64,000 nt of DNA from Candidatus Hydrothermus pacificus (GTDB taxonomy: Bacteria; Hydrothermota; Hydrothermia; Hydrothermales; Hydrothermaceae), in contig MTOH01000006.1 of the NCBI GenBank assembly GCA_002011615.1, positions 1 through 64,000 of the forward strand, written 5' to 3'. Every line of letters starts with the position of its first letter. Position 1 is the stretch's first letter. Positions 150-10,464 of the stretch are shown here, piece after piece. The notes under the pieces are model-generated. The model saw only the letters and a program-made list of their open reading frames with translations, had not been told where the DNA came from and did not search any database. The position numbers were made by a program, and so were the translations under genes.

Positions 150-1526
150 TTAAATCAATATTTTTTCTAAAAAGGCTGGAACATAGATTTTTCTAAAGTC
201 TTTATTTGAAATTTCCTGTTGAAATTTTTCCATTACTTTTTCTTCTCCGTGTGTTAAAATTATCTTTGAGTTTTTATCAATAACTGAAATCCAGTTTAAA
301 AGTTCATCCTTATCCGCATGGGATGAAAAGCCATTAACTGTGTAAATTGAAGCGTTTATTTTTATTTCATCTCCCATTATGTTAACGTATTTTTTGCCAT
401 CAACTATTTCTCTTCCAAGGGTGCCCTCAGCCTGATAACCCACAAATATTATTGAAGTTGTGTCTTTCCATGCATGATGCTTTATGTGATGCTGAATTCT
501 TCCTCCCTCACACATACCAGAGCCTGCTATTATTATTGCTTCCCTTTTTAAATTGTTTAATTTTCTGGATTCGGTTACTTTTCTCACAAAATGAAGTCCT
601 GGAAAATTTAAAGGGTCTATGCCCTGTTTTATGAGCTCCTTTGTTTGTTCATCAAAACATTCTATATGGGGTTTGAAAACCTTTGTTATTGAAATTGCAA
701 GGGGTGAGTCTAAGAATACGGGTATCTTTTTTATCTCCTCTTTTTCCTGAAGTTCTCTCAATACATATAATAAATCCTGTGTTCTTTCAAGAGCAAAAGA
801 AGGAATTAAAACAACACCCCTTTTACAGGTTGAATTTATTATTTCTTTAATCTCCTGAACAGATTCTTTAAAGGGTTTGTGGTTTCTGTTTCCATAAGTT
901 GATTCAATTATAAGAGCATCAGGGCTTTTTGTTAAAGGGGAATCAGGGTCTCTTATAACGGGCTTATTTAAATTTCCCAGGTCTCCTGAAAATGTTATTC
1001 TTTTATTCTCCGCTTCTATCTCCACAAAAGCAGAGCCGAGAATGTGTCCTGCATCAAAAAATTTGAACTTTACATTTCTGAACTTTATTTCTTCTCCGTA
1101 ATCAAAAGTTTCAAAATTTTTTATTGCCAGTATTACATCCTCTTTTGTGAATAAGGGCTCTTCAGGAGGAAGTCCTTTTCTTATATTTTTTCTTGTAATT
1201 CTTTCAGCTTCTTCTTCCTGAATCTCCGCTGCATCAAGGAGCATAAGACCTGCTATGCCCCTTGTTGCATGAGTTGAAAAAATTTTCCCTTTAAAACCAT
1301 TTTTTACAAAAACAGGAATCATTCCTGAATGGTCAAGATGGGCATGGGTTAGAATTATGAAATCTATGTTGCCAGGAGTTATTTCATCCAGTCTTTTTTC
1401 ATTTTTTTCATAACTTCCTTTACCCTGAAATATACCACAGTCAACAAGGAATCTTGTATCTTCTGTTTCAACAAGATACATACTTCCTGTAACTTCTTTT
1501 GCAGCACCAAGAAATTTGATTTTCAT
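150..1526 (-). CDS. Beta-CASP metallo-beta-lactamase RNA-processing nuclease
   Basis: This is a 458-residue cytoplasmic protein of the beta-CASP branch of the metallo-beta-lactamase fold, the family of CPSF73-like RNA endo/exonucleases. The zinc signature HAHLDHSG lies at residues 61-68. Further metal-ligand motifs are DAGHILGSA, SGDLGN, SSHADKDE and a C-terminal ILTHGE. The beta-CASP segment with ESTYGNR and GSGMCEGGR is present. Length and motif order match the single-domain bacterial family related to Thermus TTHA0252, without the extra C-terminal domain of RNase J. It is transcribed alone, divergently from the V-ATPase gene, and has no Shine-Dalgarno. RNA as substrate is inferred from the family. 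Confidence 0.9.
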   Translation of the reverse strand: MKIKFLGAAKEVTGSMYLVETEDTRFLVDCGIFQGKGSYEKNEKRLDEITPGNIDFIILTHAHLDHSGMIPVFVKNGFKGKIFSTHATRGIAGLMLLDAAEIQEEEAERITRKNIRKGLPPEEPLFTKEDVILAIKNFETFDYGEEIKFRNVKFKFFDAGHILGSAFVEIEAENKRITFSGDLGNLNKPVIRDPDSPLTKSPDALIIESTYGNRNHKPFKESVQEIKEIINSTCKRGVVLIPSFALERTQDLLYVLRELQEKEEIKKIPVFLDSPLAISITKVFKPHIECFDEQTKELIKQGIDPLNFPGLHFVRKVTESRKLNNLKREAIIIAGSGMCEGGRIQHHIKHHAWKDTTSIIFVGYQAEGTLGREIVDGKKYVNIMGDEIKINASIYTVNGFSSHADKDELLNWISVIDKNSKIILTHGEEKVMEKFQQEISNKDFRKIYVPAFLEKILI

Positions 1527-1535
1527 GAGGAATTA

Positions 1536-1541
1536 ATTATA
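1536..1541 (-). promoter_or_regulatory. -10 box of the beta-CASP nuclease gene
   Basis: TATAAT on the minus strand lies 9 nt before the ATG at 1526, and no Shine-Dalgarno intervenes. The -35 region (near 1560-1565, TTCAAA) is weak and overlaps the divergent atpA -35 box. Confidence 0.4.
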
Positions 1542-1560
1542 ATATAAAGAAGATATTATT

Positions 1561-1590
1561 TTGAATTTAATCAAGATATTTCTTTATAAT
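1561..1590 (+). promoter_or_regulatory. Promoter of the V-ATPase A gene
   Basis: TTGAAT (1561-1566), an 18-nt spacer and TATAAT (1585-1590). Transcription would start near 1597 and give a short leader with a good Shine-Dalgarno (GGAGGA, 1604-1609) before the ATG at 1616. Unlike many promoters here it drives an mRNA with a normal ribosome-binding site. Confidence 0.65.
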
Positions 1591-1615
1591 TAAACTCAAA
1601 TTTGGAGGAAAGAAA

Positions 1616-3370
1616 ATGAAGCCTTATATAGCAAGAATTTCAGGTGTTCTTATTATTGCAAAAGGAATGCGTGGTTCAAGGATGAACGAAATAGTAAGAG
1701 TCGGAAAAGAAGGTCTTGTTGGAGAAATAATAAGACTTAGAGGAGACGAAGCTTTTATTCAGGTATATGAAGATACATCAGGGCTTTTTGTAGGAGAGCC
1801 TGTTGAAAGAACCGGCGAACCTCTTATGGTGGAATTGGGTCCTGGAATGTTGACTATTGCCTATGATGGTGTCCAAAGACCTCTTGAACTTCTCAAAGCA
1901 TCCGCTGGTGATTTTGTTTCAAGAGGGCTATCAGCTCATGCTCTTTCAAGAGATAAAAAATGGCATTTTGTTCCAAAACTCGAAAAAGGAATCGAGGTTG
2001 TCCCGGGTGATATAATAGGAGAAGTTCAGGAAACCCAGTCAATTGTTCATAAAATAATGATTCCACCTGATGTTAAAGAAGGGAAAATTAAGTCCATAGC
2101 AAAAGAAGGCGACTATACCATTGAGGATATTATATGTGAACTGGATAATGGAAGTAAGATAAAAATGTATCATAAATGGCCTGTCAGGTTTCCAAGACCC
2201 TATAAGAAAAAGATGGAACCCACAAGACCTTTAATCACAGGACAGAGAATACTTGACTTTTTCTTTCCTGTAGCACTGGGAGGAAACTCGGCTTTACCCG
2301 GGGGATTTGGAACAGGTAAAACAGTTCTCGAACAGACCCTTGCGAAGTACGCCCTTGTTGAAATAGTTATTTATATAGGTTGTGGTGAAAGAGGAAATGA
2401 AATGGCAGATGTTTTAACAGAATTTCCTCATCTTGAAGACCCGTTTCATGGTGGACCTCTTATGAATAGAACAATACTTGTTGTTAATACATCAAACATG
2501 CCTGTGGCAGCAAGGGAAGCATCAATTTATGTTGGAATAACAATGGCTGAATATTACAGGGATATGGGATACAATGTCCTTCTTCTTGCAGACTCAACAT
2601 CAAGATGGGCTGAGGCATTGAGAGAAATATCCTCAAGGCTTGAGGAGATGCCAGGAGAAGAGGGGTTTCCACCTTATCTTGCAGCAAAACTTTCTGAATT
2701 TTATGAGAGAACCGGAAGGATAAAATGCCTTGGAAAAGATGACAGGGAAGGTTCTGTTACCGCAATAGGTGCGGTGTCACCTCCTGGAGGTGACTTCTCA
2801 GAGCCTGTAACCCAGAACACTTTAAGAATTACGGGTGCTTTATGGGCACTTGACACATCTCTTGCTCATAGAAGACATTATCCTGCAATAAACTGGTTGA
2901 GGAGTTATACCCTTTATTACGGACTTATGGAGGACTGGTACAGGGAGAATGTGAGCAAAGAATGGCCTGAACTTAGAAGAAAAGCCTCAGAGATACTTCA
3001 GAAAGATGCAGAGCTTCAAGAAATTGTTCAGCTTGTTGGTCCTGATGCCCTTGAAGAACCCGAAAGAATATTGCTTGAAACAGGAAAGTTAATAAGAGAA
3101 GGATTTCTGGCTCAGAGTGCATTTCACGAGATTGATGCGTCCTGTCCTGTGGAAAAACAGGAAAAAATTATGAAGACAATTCTGAAATATCATGAATCTG
3201 CAGTAGAATCCTTAAAAAAGGGAAGACCCCTTGAAGAAATCTTGAACCCTGAACTGGTTGAGAGAATAATAAGATTAAAAGAACTTTCGCCCGAGGATTT
3301 TGAGACTGAGAAAAAGGAAGTTGAGAAGGAAATAGAATCTTTAAAAGAATTTGAGGAAGTTAAAGGATAA
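1616..3370 (+). CDS. atpA: V/A-type ATP synthase catalytic subunit A
   Basis: This 584-residue protein is the catalytic A subunit of an archaeal/vacuolar-type rotary ATPase. It has the N-terminal barrel, the bulge domain typical of A subunits (about residues 110-190), the P-loop GGFGTGKT near residue 230, and the catalytic region [12 protein letters not shown] followed by [17 protein letters not shown]. Length is normal. The start follows a strong Shine-Dalgarno and its own promoter. The context is odd: subunits B, D, E, C, F, I and K are not adjacent. An acyltransferase gene overlaps the 3' end by 20 bp and a nuclease gene lies divergently upstream. The remaining subunits must be elsewhere if a complex is made. 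Confidence 0.93.
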
Positions 3371-4013
3371 ACTTTTAAATAATCTTTTTAAAATTTTTTC
3401 TCTTCTATATTACTTTTATTGTAAGACACTTAGAATCAGGATTTTCGGGAACAAGGATTATCTACCCTATAATATAAAAAAGGGGGGAAATAACTGTATT
3501 TTTTGCTTCTGGCACTCACAGATCTTCCCGTTGATTTTTAGCCACAGAAATAAAGGTATAGCAGTTCTTGTTTCACGACATAGGGACGGAGAATTAATTG
3601 CAAAAATTTTAAGGAGTTTTAAATTTAACCTTGCAAGAGGTTCCTTTAAAAGAAAAGGAGAAATCGGTTTTTTATCCTTAAGGAGATTTTTAAAAAAAGG
3701 GTTTTGTGTTGCCATAACACCTGATGGACCAAGAGGACCGAGATGGCTTTTCAAGGAGGGAGCAATAATTCTGTCAAGAGAGACAAAAAAGCCTTTAATT
3801 CTGGTGGGAACAGGGTATTCAAGATTTATAGAGTTTAAAAGCTGGGATAGATTTAGATTGCCCTTACCTTTTTCAAGGGTCGCAATATATATATCAAAAC
3901 TCTATTATCCAGGGGGAGAAAATTTCGTAGAATTTATATCAGAAGAGTTAACCCGCTACACATCCCTTGCTTTTGAGTTGAGCAGGAATCCTGAAAAAAT
4001 AACAAGGGGATAA
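3351..4013 (+). CDS. DUF374-family lysophospholipid acyltransferase-like protein
   Basis: This 220-residue protein belongs to the DUF374 branch of glycerolipid/lipid A-type acyltransferases. Visible motifs are FWHSQIFPL near residue 50 (the HX4-type acyltransferase box in DUF374 form), [21 protein letters not shown] and TPDGPRGP, all hallmarks of this family. A hydrophobic N-terminus suggests membrane association. The start is TTG at 3351, inside the last codons of atpA, so translation is probably coupled. The 3' end overlaps the convergent comEC gene by 58 bp. The acyl acceptor cannot be read from sequence; a lipid A or phospholipid precursor is inferred from the family. Confidence 0.8.
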
Positions 4014-5071
4014 ATAAAGAAAATAAGAGAAGAGACCTTTTTCACATAAACACAGGAAAACTTAAAAGAGGAAAGAGCAGTATTTAAATAGAACAATATA
4101 TCCTTTGATAAAAAAATAAATCCCTTAATCCCTTCTTTTATAAAAAAAGGAAAAGGATAAAATAAAACAAAGATAAAAGAAGATATTATGGTCAATGTTA
4201 AAAAGGGAGTTAAAATCAAATTTGATATTATTGAAATCAGGGACAGGTATTTAAAATGATAAAGAATATAGGGAAACACTGAAATTTGTGCAGAAAAGGA
4301 AACAATCATGGGAGAAATTATGTATTTGTTGAAATTGACGAATTTTGTTTTAAAGAAATTAAAAAGAGGCGGATAAAATAAGAGAATTCCCCCGGTTGCA
4401 AGATAGGACAGAATAAAGCCGTGGTCAAAAAGCCACAAAGGATGTACTATCAAAGAAATAAAACCCGCCATTCCAAGGGTATTAAGTGATAAACTTTCCC
4501 TTTCTAAAAAAGCCATGAGTGAAAACACAAAAATCATTATATTGGCTCTTAAAACAGATGGCCTTAATGGTATGGCTGTTGTGTAGATTAAAAGTAGAGA
4601 AGAAGAGAGTATATAAGACAATTTGTAAGGAACTCTTAATATTCTTAAGAGTATAAAGAAAAACAGCCATATTATACCCATGTGAAGTCCTGAGATTGCA
4701 AAAAAATGTATTGTTCCTGTTCTTTTAAATCTTTCCTTAAGTGTCCTGCTGATTTTTGTTCTGTCCCCAAGAATTATTGCTTTTAAAAATCTTGAATCGT
4801 TTCTATTGAAATTCCTGTCAAACATTTTAGATAAAAATAGATGAACTTTTTTGTTTATTATAATGAAATTCTTTTCAATAGAGACTTTATTGTTAAATGA
4901 GAAGTGGATATACCCTGCAAGCAGAAATAGAATCCAGAAAAAGTTTTTTTTAAGTATTAACAGAGTTAAAAGACAGATTAAAATAATCAGAAATAAAGGA
5001 CAATTCAGTCTTTTTAATAAAATACCCCCACCGAATAAAATGAAACAGAGTAAAGAACTATACTTTCTTAT
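3956..5071 (-). CDS. comEC: Minimal ComEC/Rec2 competence-domain membrane protein, non-canonical start
   Basis: This protein has the ComEC membrane channel core. The signature GTIHFFAISGLHMGI is followed by about seven hydrophobic segments, with PLRPSVLRA and GFILSYLATGG typical of the competence domain. The first ATG is at 4825, but the same frame is open back to the TGA at 5090-5092 and encodes hydrophobic, membrane-like sequence up to there. That stretch contains no ATG, GTG or TTG. The start is therefore probably a rare codon, for example ATA at 5071 one base after the roadblock stop codon, giving about 371 residues. The N-terminal OB (DUF4131) domain and the C-terminal metallo-beta-lactamase domain of long ComEC proteins are absent. 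A DNA-uptake role is inferred from the family only. Confidence 0.8.
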   Translation of the reverse strand: MRKYSSLLCFILFGGGILLKRLNCPLFLIILICLLTLLILKKNFFWILFLLAGYIHFSFNNKVSIEKNFIIINKKVHLFLSKMFDRNFNRNDSRFLKAIILGDRTKISRTLKERFKRTGTIHFFAISGLHMGIIWLFFFILLRILRVPYKLSYILSSSLLLIYTTAIPLRPSVLRANIMIFVFSLMAFLERESLSLNTLGMAGFISLIVHPLWLFDHGFILSYLATGGILLFYPPLFNFFKTKFVNFNKYIISPMIVSFSAQISVFPYILYHFKYLSLISIISNLILTPFLTLTIISSFIFVLFYPFPFFIKEGIKGFIFLSKDILFYLNTALSSFKFSCVYVKKVSSLIFFIYPLVIFSGFLLNSKARDV

Positions 5072-7989: not shown

Positions 7990-10464
7990 ATGAAAGAATA
8001 CAATTTTTATGAAGTAGAGAGAAAATGGCAGAAAGTATGGGACCAAACAGGACTTTTTGAAAGTCCTGATACCTCTTCAAAAAAATTTTATGTGCTCGTG
8101 ATGTTTCCTTACCCTTCGGGTGACCTTCATATGGGACATTGTAGAAATTATGTTATAGGAGATGTAATAGCGAGGAAAAAGAAACTGGAAGGTTATGATG
8201 TTCTCCACCCATTTGGATGGGACGCTTTTGGTTTACCTGCCGAAAATGCTGCAATAAAAAGAGGAATCCACCCAAGAGAATGGACACTTAAAAATATTGA
8301 AGGCTCCAGAGAAGATATAAAGAAAATGGGAATTTCTTACGACTGGAAGAGGGAAGTGATGACATGCAACCCGAATTATTATAAATGGACTCAATGGCTC
8401 TTTCTTTTACTTTATAAAAGAGGACTTGCTTACAGGAAAAAAGCCTTTGTAAATTTCTGTCCCTCCTGTCAAACAGTTCTTGCAAATGAACAGGTACTTG
8501 CGGGTAAATGTGAAAGATGCAATACAGAGATTGTTAAAAAAGACCTTGAACAGTGGTTTTTCAAGATAACAGCTTATGCTGAAAGACTTTTAAAAGATAT
8601 GGAAAAACTTGATGGAAAATGGCCAAGAAGAGTAATAGAGATGCAAAAGAACTGGATAGGAAAATCTGAAGGTGCTCTTATAGACTTTCCTCTTGAACAA
8701 AATCCTGACATCAAACTCTCTGTATTTACCACAAGGGCTGATACAATTTACGGAGTAACATTCCTGACAATTGCCCCTGAACATGAAATTCTAAAGGTAC
8801 TCATTAAAGATTCTGAACACGAAAAAAAAGTGCTTGAATACATTGAAAACTCATTAAAGGTCCCTGAAATGGAAAGAGCAAGCATAGAAAGAAAAAAAAC
8901 AGGTGTTTTTACCGGTAAGTATGCAATTCATCCCTTTACAAAAGAAAAACTACCCATATTCGTTGGTGATTATGTCCTTGTTCATTATGGAACAGGAATT
9001 GTAATGGGTGTGCCGGGGCATGACGCAAGAGATTTTGAATTTGCAAAAAAGATGGATATTGATATAAAAATAGTTATAAAACCTTTTAATGAGGAGCTTC
9101 CAGAGGAACTGGAAAGTGCCTATGAAGAATACGGTGTAATGATAAATTCGGGAGAATTTACAGGGCTTGATTCGTTTAAAGGAATTGAGAAGGTATGTGA
9201 AAAACTTTCTGAAATGAATCTGGGTAAAAAAGCAGTCTCTTACAGGCTAAGGGACTGGCTCATTTCAAGGCAGAGATACTGGGGTGCACCAATTCCCATA
9301 ATTCACTGTGAAAATTGTGGCACAGTCCCTGTTCCTGAAAAGGACCTGCCCGTTTTATTGCCAGAAGAAGTTGACTATCTTCCAAAAGGCAAATCACCTC
9401 TTGAATCGAGTGAAGAGTTTATGAACACAGAGTGTCCTGAGTGCGGTAAAAAGGCACGGAGGGACCCTGATACAATGGACACTTTTGTAGATTCCTCATG
9501 GTACTATTTAAGATACATAGACCCTGAAAATGACAAACAAATTTTTGATAAGGAGAAGGTAAAACTATGGATTCCTGTAGACCAGTACATAGGAGGTGCA
9601 GAACATGCGACAGGACATCTACTTTATGCAAGATTCATAGGGAAAGTTCTTTATGATGAAGGACTTATAAACTCTGATGAACCCCTTGAAAGACTCTTCA
9701 CACAGGGAATGATCCTGAGGAAGACACCTTCAGGTGAGGTGGAAATGATGTCAAAAAGAGCAGGAAATGCAGTAAAGATTAAAGACTTTGTAAAAGAATG
9801 GGGAGCTGATGTTGCGAGAATAAATATACTGTTTGCAGGACCACCTGAAAGGGATTTTGAATGGACTGATGAAGGAGTCCAGGGGGCAAAGAGATTTCTC
9901 TTGAGGGTCTGGAAACTTTTCACAGAGAATGAAGATATTTTTAAAAAAACAGATTCACAGATAGATAAGGATAGACTCGAAGGCAAGGAGAGGGATTTAT
10001 ACAGAATAACACATATTTATTACAAGAGGGTTTTTGATGATATAGAAAATTATAAGTTTAACACCGCAATTGCAGCGATGATGGAATGGATAAACCATCT
10101 CTATTCCTTTGAGTTCAAATTGTCTCCAGTATTTGGATATTCTCTTAATATGCTCTGTATAACCCTGGCACCCTTTGCTCCTCATATGGCAGAGGAAATC
10201 TGGGCTAAAAAATCAGAACAAAGTATATTCAAACAAAGATTTATAGAACCTGATAAAGAGATAATAGAAGAAGAGAAAATAACTCTTGTTGTGCAAATTA
10301 ATGGAAGGGTAAGGGGGAAATTGCTTGTTGAAAGAGGACTTACTGAAGAAGATGTGAAAAAGATTGCTCTTTCAATTCCAAATGTCAAAAAACATATTGA
10401 AAACAGGAAAATAGTAAAGATGCTTTATGTTCCTGATAAAATATTCAGCATTGTGGTAAAGTAA
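7990..10464 (+). CDS. leuS: Leucyl-tRNA synthetase
   Basis: This 824-residue class I synthetase charges tRNA-Leu. The HIGH element is in YPSGDLHMGHCRNYV (about residues 40-54). A zinc-binding insert has CPSC...CERC near residues 158-180. The CP1 editing domain contains the conserved FTTRADTIYGVTF and the GTGIVMGVPGHDARD block. A second zinc-like cluster (CENC...CPEC) lies near residues 440-500. The KMSKS position reads MMSKRAGN, with Met for the first Lys and Arg for the last Ser. The catalytic lysine remains. The C-terminus has the usual VQINGRVRGKL segment. Translation appears to start on a leaderless mRNA. Confidence 0.96.
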   Translation: MKEYNFYEVERKWQKVWDQTGLFESPDTSSKKFYVLVMFPYPSGDLHMGHCRNYVIGDVIARKKKLEGYDVLHPFGWDAFGLPAENAAIKRGIHPREWTLKNIEGSREDIKKMGISYDWKREVMTCNPNYYKWTQWLFLLLYKRGLAYRKKAFVNFCPSCQTVLANEQVLAGKCERCNTEIVKKDLEQWFFKITAYAERLLKDMEKLDGKWPRRVIEMQKNWIGKSEGALIDFPLEQNPDIKLSVFTTRADTIYGVTFLTIAPEHEILKVLIKDSEHEKKVLEYIENSLKVPEMERASIERKKTGVFTGKYAIHPFTKEKLPIFVGDYVLVHYGTGIVMGVPGHDARDFEFAKKMDIDIKIVIKPFNEELPEELESAYEEYGVMINSGEFTGLDSFKGIEKVCEKLSEMNLGKKAVSYRLRDWLISRQRYWGAPIPIIHCENCGTVPVPEKDLPVLLPEEVDYLPKGKSPLESSEEFMNTECPECGKKARRDPDTMDTFVDSSWYYLRYIDPENDKQIFDKEKVKLWIPVDQYIGGAEHATGHLLYARFIGKVLYDEGLINSDEPLERLFTQGMILRKTPSGEVEMMSKRAGNAVKIKDFVKEWGADVARINILFAGPPERDFEWTDEGVQGAKRFLLRVWKLFTENEDIFKKTDSQIDKDRLEGKERDLYRITHIYYKRVFDDIENYKFNTAIAAMMEWINHLYSFEFKLSPVFGYSLNMLCITLAPFAPHMAEEIWAKKSEQSIFKQRFIEPDKEIIEEEKITLVVQINGRVRGKLLVERGLTEEDVKKIALSIPNVKKHIENRKIVKMLYVPDKIFSIVVK

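Follow-up and report, generated by a model that had tools for sequence, protein, structure and literature searches.

A catalytic A subunit gene standing apart from its partners, and the probable A-type ATP synthase it serves from scattered loci in a bacterial class

Operons are commonly credited with helping the subunits of large complexes come together in the right ratios, and A-type (V/A) ATP synthases are usually encoded in a single one. The window analyzed here, a stretch of 64,000 nucleotides (positions 1 to 64,000 of contig C3) from the 2.06-Mb, 19-contig genome of Candidatus Hydrothermus pacificus (G000), carries a gene for the catalytic subunit A with no partner gene beside it. Does this gene belong to a working enzyme, and where are the other subunits? 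The first-pass annotation had presented it as an A subunit encoded without its partners, coming either from a dispersed operon or from a repurposed or leftover gene. We consider it very probable that A is the catalytic subunit of a complete, working A-type ATP synthase whose subunits are encoded at four loci. This explanation builds on the observed gene inventory, on linkage, on the congruence of phylogenies and on patterns in the upstream sequences.

The A gene (1616-3370, forward strand) is a single-gene locus encoding 584 amino acids, identified by its domains, motifs and position in trees. All four V/A A-subunit Pfam domains score above their cut-offs, and the Xtn domain, Walker A and GER motif are all present (Pfam domains, structure-sequence alignment). 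Residues 4-556 align with the solved A subunit of Pyrococcus horikoshii, with which a 17-residue and a 12-residue stretch are kept, and the P-loop, GER and Walker B regions are intact. The protein scores 866 bits against PRK04192 (cut-off 470), and 902 bits against TIGR01043, “ATP synthase subunit A”, which is under the curated equivalog cut-off of 972. The initial impression of a complete protein with an intact P-loop was thus correct.

Upstream, a divergent beta-CASP-type metallo-hydrolase gene (150-1526, reverse strand; ORF list and profile match) bounds the A unit, which therefore begins with A. The best NCBIfam match of this hydrolase is a type VII CRISPR Cas14 model (467 bits, cut-off 800), and it is perhaps a housekeeping beta-CASP nuclease. 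The intergenic region (1527-1615, forward strand) holds, by consensus match, a promoter-like pair, TTGAAT-18-TATAAT, at 1561-1590, and a GGAGG ribosome-binding site ahead of A, with an SD duplex of −9.3 kcal/mol. A scan of 1300-4300 found 16 promoter-like sites where 8.7 were expected, and for this reason the promoter that had been ascribed to A is only suggested. Downstream lies a DUF374 ORF (3351-4013, forward strand; PF04028, 84.9 bits), initially read as an acyltransferase and included in the span 1616-4013 that was marked together with A. Its TTG start is uncertain, and the reported overlap with A amounts to 20 bases provided that this start is used. No DUF374 homologue (at least 30% identity, 60% length) was found in the fetched loci, among them those of A from 19 other genomes, some of these loci being cut by contig ends. 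The ORF is probably an unrelated neighbor; a link with A was rejected, because the DUF374 neighbor is not conserved beside the A of relatives.

No other V-ATPase genes were seen in the first 9 kb of the window. A conserved home for A was likewise rejected, as its neighbors are shared no further than the genus or family: clusters c30-c32, for instance, in genus g2, c14, which reads like an outer-membrane-protein-like sequence, in family f3, and LeuRS in f11. In the window leuS lies at 7990-10464, 4.6 kb downstream of A, and in three f11 genomes (L166, L169, L170) it lies directly 3′ of A. This proximity is perhaps the trace of an old shared neighborhood.

The partners are found elsewhere in the genome, an assembly that is 95% complete with 0.01% contamination. 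Subunits B, C, D, E, F, I and K are all present. B stands alone on contig C1, at about 128 kb, followed by a glycosyltransferase gene, and scores 754 bits against TIGR01041, under the cut-off of 845. D also stands alone on C1, at about 192 kb, some 63 kb from B. The remaining genes form an operon, H-I-K-E-C-F, on contig C15, in which the families of I, K, E, C and F are confirmed by Pfam, and the candidate H (121 aa, no Pfam match) is named by its position as the first gene. The genes following this operon read as IMP dehydrogenase and others. Genome searches returned one copy each of A, B, C, D, F and I, while E, K and the candidate H are known from the C15 operon. Three genes carry PF00006, namely A, the standalone B and a Rho-like gene, which a reading of its sequence, rather than a family search, identifies as Rho. 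A second A was not found in the genome search, nor were F1 alpha or beta subunits in the PF00006 search, and an F-type ATP synthase was therefore rejected as the main enzyme. The genome thus has four loci in place of the usual single operon. The A gene does have partners, and the dispersed operon is the one of the initial suggestions borne out. The case is not that of an otherwise intact operon lacking A, since B and D have gone their own ways as well.

The enzyme looks like a synthase. The K subunit of G000 has 105 amino acids, with PF00137 over residues 42-101, and reads as a single hairpin with its carboxylate in IPET, so that the two-helix K with one carboxylate per hairpin, a synthase-type feature, is present. 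The best solved-structure matches of K and I are the Thermus K (58.8 bits; its precursor has 99 aa, similar to the K here) and the Thermus I (191 bits), and A is nearest to Pyrococcus and Thermus A among solved structures. By reading, one hairpin was found in 13 of 13 scattered-set K ORFs seen, and two hairpins in 6 of 6 K ORFs of the operon-type sets in the class, which have 156-173 amino acids, PGTQG with no acid in the first hairpin, and E in the second. This difference suggests that the scattered enzyme is a synthase-type A-ATPase and the operon enzyme an NtpK-type pump. By this reading the latter, which is not the enzyme of the window, resembles the Na+-pumping V-ATPase of Enterococcus hirae. 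In G000 neither an operon-type A nor an operon-type B was found; its A falls outside the operon-type V-ATPase clade, and its K is not a double hairpin. Sodium specificity was considered from K and dropped, as the Thermus K has the same residues (GTxxAQARIG, PET).

Do the separate genes belong together? Trees were built for A, B and D, and not for C, E, F, H, I or K. The scattered A genes form one clade in a tree of 99 rows and again in a tree of 92 rows with phylum members (SH-aLRT 100 in both); this clade of 19 rows includes the A of G000 and spans six families. The scattered B genes (73 rows, SH-aLRT 100) and D genes (63 rows, SH-aLRT 97) also form one clade each. One gene labelled as B, on C12 of G040, was set far apart from the B family by a branch of 10 and was later excluded. 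The nearest group in every tree is Nitrospira/bin47 (support 95, 91, 89, and 97), whose members keep operons; it has long branches, flagged by the tree tool, and its position as sister is unsure. Operon-type genes from the class fall among Synergistota/Bacillota-like V-ATPases, together with the main V-type found in the rest of the phylum. The comparison with operon-encoded A subunits that had been proposed at the outset places the scattered A in a clade separate from the operon-type A of the class. Genes from three loci with one history argue that A, B and D serve one enzyme.

It could instead be that each gene was gained from a donor of its own and that the set only resembles a single enzyme. 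The whole set may indeed be of foreign origin, as the A-type differs from the V-type of the rest of the phylum: in a search of 147 phylum genomes (E ≤ 1e-190; 115 with a match; partial copies are missed), scattered-type A with 63-73% identity occurred in 19 genomes, all in the class, and the best identity outside the class was 57%. However, the A, B and D trees agree on the nearest group and give one clade each, and we therefore grant separate donors little chance. The agreement fits the acquisition of one whole operon, or its ancient presence, followed by scattering of a single synthase.

The layout was followed in 41 genomes, 40 of them from the class, in which I, A, B, D, C and F were placed and linkage was counted within 5 kb. 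Within the class, 21 genomes have the scattered type only, 15 an operon-type V-ATPase only, and four (G023, G029, G035, G037) both, giving totals of 25 and 19. The layout is thus widespread and not shared by all relatives, the 15 operon-only genomes lacking it. Three genomes (G007, G023, G036; 82-92% complete) were counted as scattered with no A found, their B or D being in the scattered clade. In scattered sets A-B were linked in 0/22, A-D in 0/22, B-D in 0/23, D-I in 1/23, and C-F in 5/24, compared with A-B in 19/19 and A-D in 10/18 operon-type sets. C and F are kept with I only in the order of the window (G000-G004). Among the other scattered sets with all six genes, 14 of 15 have them in six separate places, and G027 in five. 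In G039, contig ends suggest a B two genes upstream of A, an arrangement missed by the linkage count. Operon-type sets vary as well: D is detached in f4 and f6 and I is in f10, and in f6 I-C-F lie away from A-B. The linkage count includes partial A genes (G012, G015, G021, G038) and B genes resting on weak N-terminal matches (G026, G031); the A of G035 is cut by a contig end. On contig C152 of G009, where A is normal and B is split between two ORFs, lies a further gene (L200:154-1800) for an A-like protein of 548 amino acids with no recognizable P-loop and PF00006 barely at the cut-off; this protein was excluded from the A trees.

Could the scattering be an artefact of assembly or binning, with contig breaks or mixed strains parting genes that are in fact linked? 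The window begins at base 1 of its contig, and the class relatives are drafts, some copies of A or B being fragmentary or lying at contig ends. Yet unrelated genes flank each of the four G000 loci on both sides, in an assembly of few contigs, high completeness and hardly any contamination. Furthermore, A and B are apart in every scattered set and linked in every operon-type set of similar drafts, three of the latter even sharing genomes with scattered sets. We regard an artefact as very unlikely. That A is a leftover or repurposed gene no longer working in a rotary ATPase, as its isolation in the window and its score under the TIGR01043 cut-off might suggest, is scarcely credible given the partner genes in the genome, the intact catalytic motifs, the lack of any other A in the genome search, and the one history shared by A, B and D, for A over six families.

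Outside the class, A and B mostly stay together. From the 80 best of 544 loci by similarity, 77 had room for a next gene, and B follows A in 76 of them (73 found by script, plus L040, L067, and L082, whose B reaches further back into the A ORF than the script allowed). The sole exception is L042, a euryarchaeal A with no B in the next 6 kb. A 70-genome phylum sample, read by eye with weak matches unlisted, contained 55 genomes from outside the class: A and B were adjacent in 36, apart in three (G040, G092, G082), cut by a contig end in three, and untestable as a pair in 13; profiles confirmed the genes in 13 of the 36 adjacent cases and in all three apart. G040 and G092, both of family f12 (L282, L283, L286), have an A of the operon lineage with no adjoining B, and a search for C (PF01992) in G040 found none; f12 is perhaps a second, independent scattering. 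Two genomes of family f14 (G042, G068; L278-L281) carry two A-B-D clusters apiece: one is a V-type operon, the other a distant third type with a 123-aa K, and in the latter no C was seen.

When did the synthase genes come apart? In a LeuRS tree with 30 of the 41 genomes, the order of the window branches first, and scattered genomes sit on several branches. The simplest reading is scattering before the radiation of the class, followed by loss of either enzyme. From this one marker, with open forks, we infer that the scattering probably predates the class and was inherited vertically. Most class families with scattering would then have gone on to six loci.

The start signals of the standalone genes differ from those inside operons. 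We called a start leaderless-type when a TANNNT −10-like box ended 5-10 nt before the ATG and no SD was present; related rows in all these counts are not independent. Of the 23 readable standalone D genes, 22 have the box and one (G012) has an SD, the D of G038 (1/24) being masked and out of the readable count; the D of G000 is leaderless-type, with a box spacing of 9. Inside operons, D has the box in 0/7 and an SD in 7/7, and operon D of outside genomes has the box in 2/17. The single D of G040 has a weak box. The box is also frequent in standalone F (9/10) and C (7/11), compared with operon F (1/9) and operon C (3/10). Standalone A has it in 9/18, all nine in f3 and f9, the remaining nine having an SD, and operon A in 0/12, with an SD in 12/12 (one, L193, counted from a doubtful GTG start). 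For standalone B the counts are 8/18 boxes and 10/18 SD, one gene having both and one neither; another choice of B starts (4/18 boxes, 9 SD, 5 neither) was judged poor and not used.

The background has to be kept in mind. AT-rich upstream DNA makes a −10-like box likelier by chance, at about 0.24 for f1 and f2 when all six spacings are taken together. The box is common in f3 and in f9 (28% of 60 genes at a spacing of 8 nt), as counted in genes of the fetched loci with a rough choice of starts, and in f9 genes an SD is no commoner than at internal ATGs (0.17 vs 0.19). Leaderless-type starts in general look common in f3 and f9 loci, e.g., L145, L164, L167, L199 and L303. In f11 the box rate is near background, yet D (4/4), C (3/3) and F (3/3) all have it. 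A weaker SD of standalone D as a rule was rejected (A vs D, p = 0.04; B vs D, p = 0.38; rows not independent). Leaderless mRNA from promoter boxes adjoining the start codon has been described in Deinococcus-Thermus (PMC12340547), and extensive leaderless transcripts in Mycobacterium tuberculosis (PMC3898074). The patterns predict that the standalone genes are autonomous, often leaderless, single-gene units.

In G000 both A and B are preceded by ordinary SD leaders, and the separation of these two genes therefore needs an explanation other than leaderless starts. A wider reading is that the scattering is a maintained expression design, in which promoter and translation mode replace operon position in setting subunit ratios. 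In favor of it, f1, f2, f7 and f11 combine SD-led A (9/9) and B (8/9) with leaderless-type D (11/11), a subunit present once per complex, and the D of f4, which is out of a V-type operon, has a leaderless-type start in 5/5. On the other side, A and B of f3 and f9 are mostly leaderless-type, and D split from the operon-type set in f6 has an SD in 3/3 and no box (0/3), and the D of f5 has an SD in 1/1. We hold this design to be speculative and rather unlikely.

For the synthase as such, we propose that the complex would be made from A (C3), B (C1), D (C1) and H-I-K-E-C-F (C15). The standalone genes would work autonomously from their own promoters, and standalone D, nearly always with a −10 box adjoining its start codon, would give a leaderless mRNA, its transcription start being predicted from the box. 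The separately made subunits would assemble as usual, with an A3B3 head turned by D/F, an E/H peripheral stalk, and C; the membrane part would consist of I and a ring of two-helix K subunits. If this assembly is active, an ion gradient, whichever the ion, would drive ATP synthesis, or ATP hydrolysis would run it in reverse. Two NADHdh (complex-I-like) genes in G000 could supply the gradient.

How does this arrangement compare with known systems? The A-type synthase of Thermus thermophilus and archaea consists of the same subunit families and is encoded in one operon, whereas here A, B and D are alone, and H-I-K-E-C-F apart. One study lists distant locus tags for the A-type synthases of two archaea, Ignicoccus hospitalis (A Iho_1305, B Iho_0679, F Iho_1081, c Iho0682) and Nanoarchaeum equitans (A Neq103, B Neq263, c NEQ217) (PMC3149612), tags which suggest that the genes are scattered. 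According to the same study, every subunit but c was detected in I. hospitalis, so a scattered A-type synthase can be expressed, and the complex of N. equitans is without several subunits. Unlike these archaea, in which operons are generally fragmented, our case concerns a class of bacteria, several families of which have the genes at six loci. Split F-type atp loci are described from Aquificae, Beggiatoa, cyanobacteria and others, with the remark that how species cope with them needs study (Koumandou and Kossida 2014, PMC4154653). They share with our case a rotary synthase locus that is broken between catalytic genes and still in use; they differ in that three blocks are usually kept, while here A, B and D are each alone. 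In the open-licence literature, judged by the titles and abstract starts of the matches listed, we found no bacterial class with a scattered V/A-type synthase. Scattered archaeal A-type and split F-type enzymes are thus known, and the class-wide scattered bacterial A-type synthase looks like a new form of such a layout.

Where annotation takes ATPase genes to be colocated, it can mistake the enzymes of such genomes for partial ones. One tool, ProAD, joins separate clusters into complete sets where possible (PMC11738941). Across a large part of this class, an ATP synthase has its catalytic core encoded by single genes that lie apart from one another. The four relatives with a second, gene-clustered rotary ATPase offer a natural paired comparison of how subunit ratios are reached without co-transcription.
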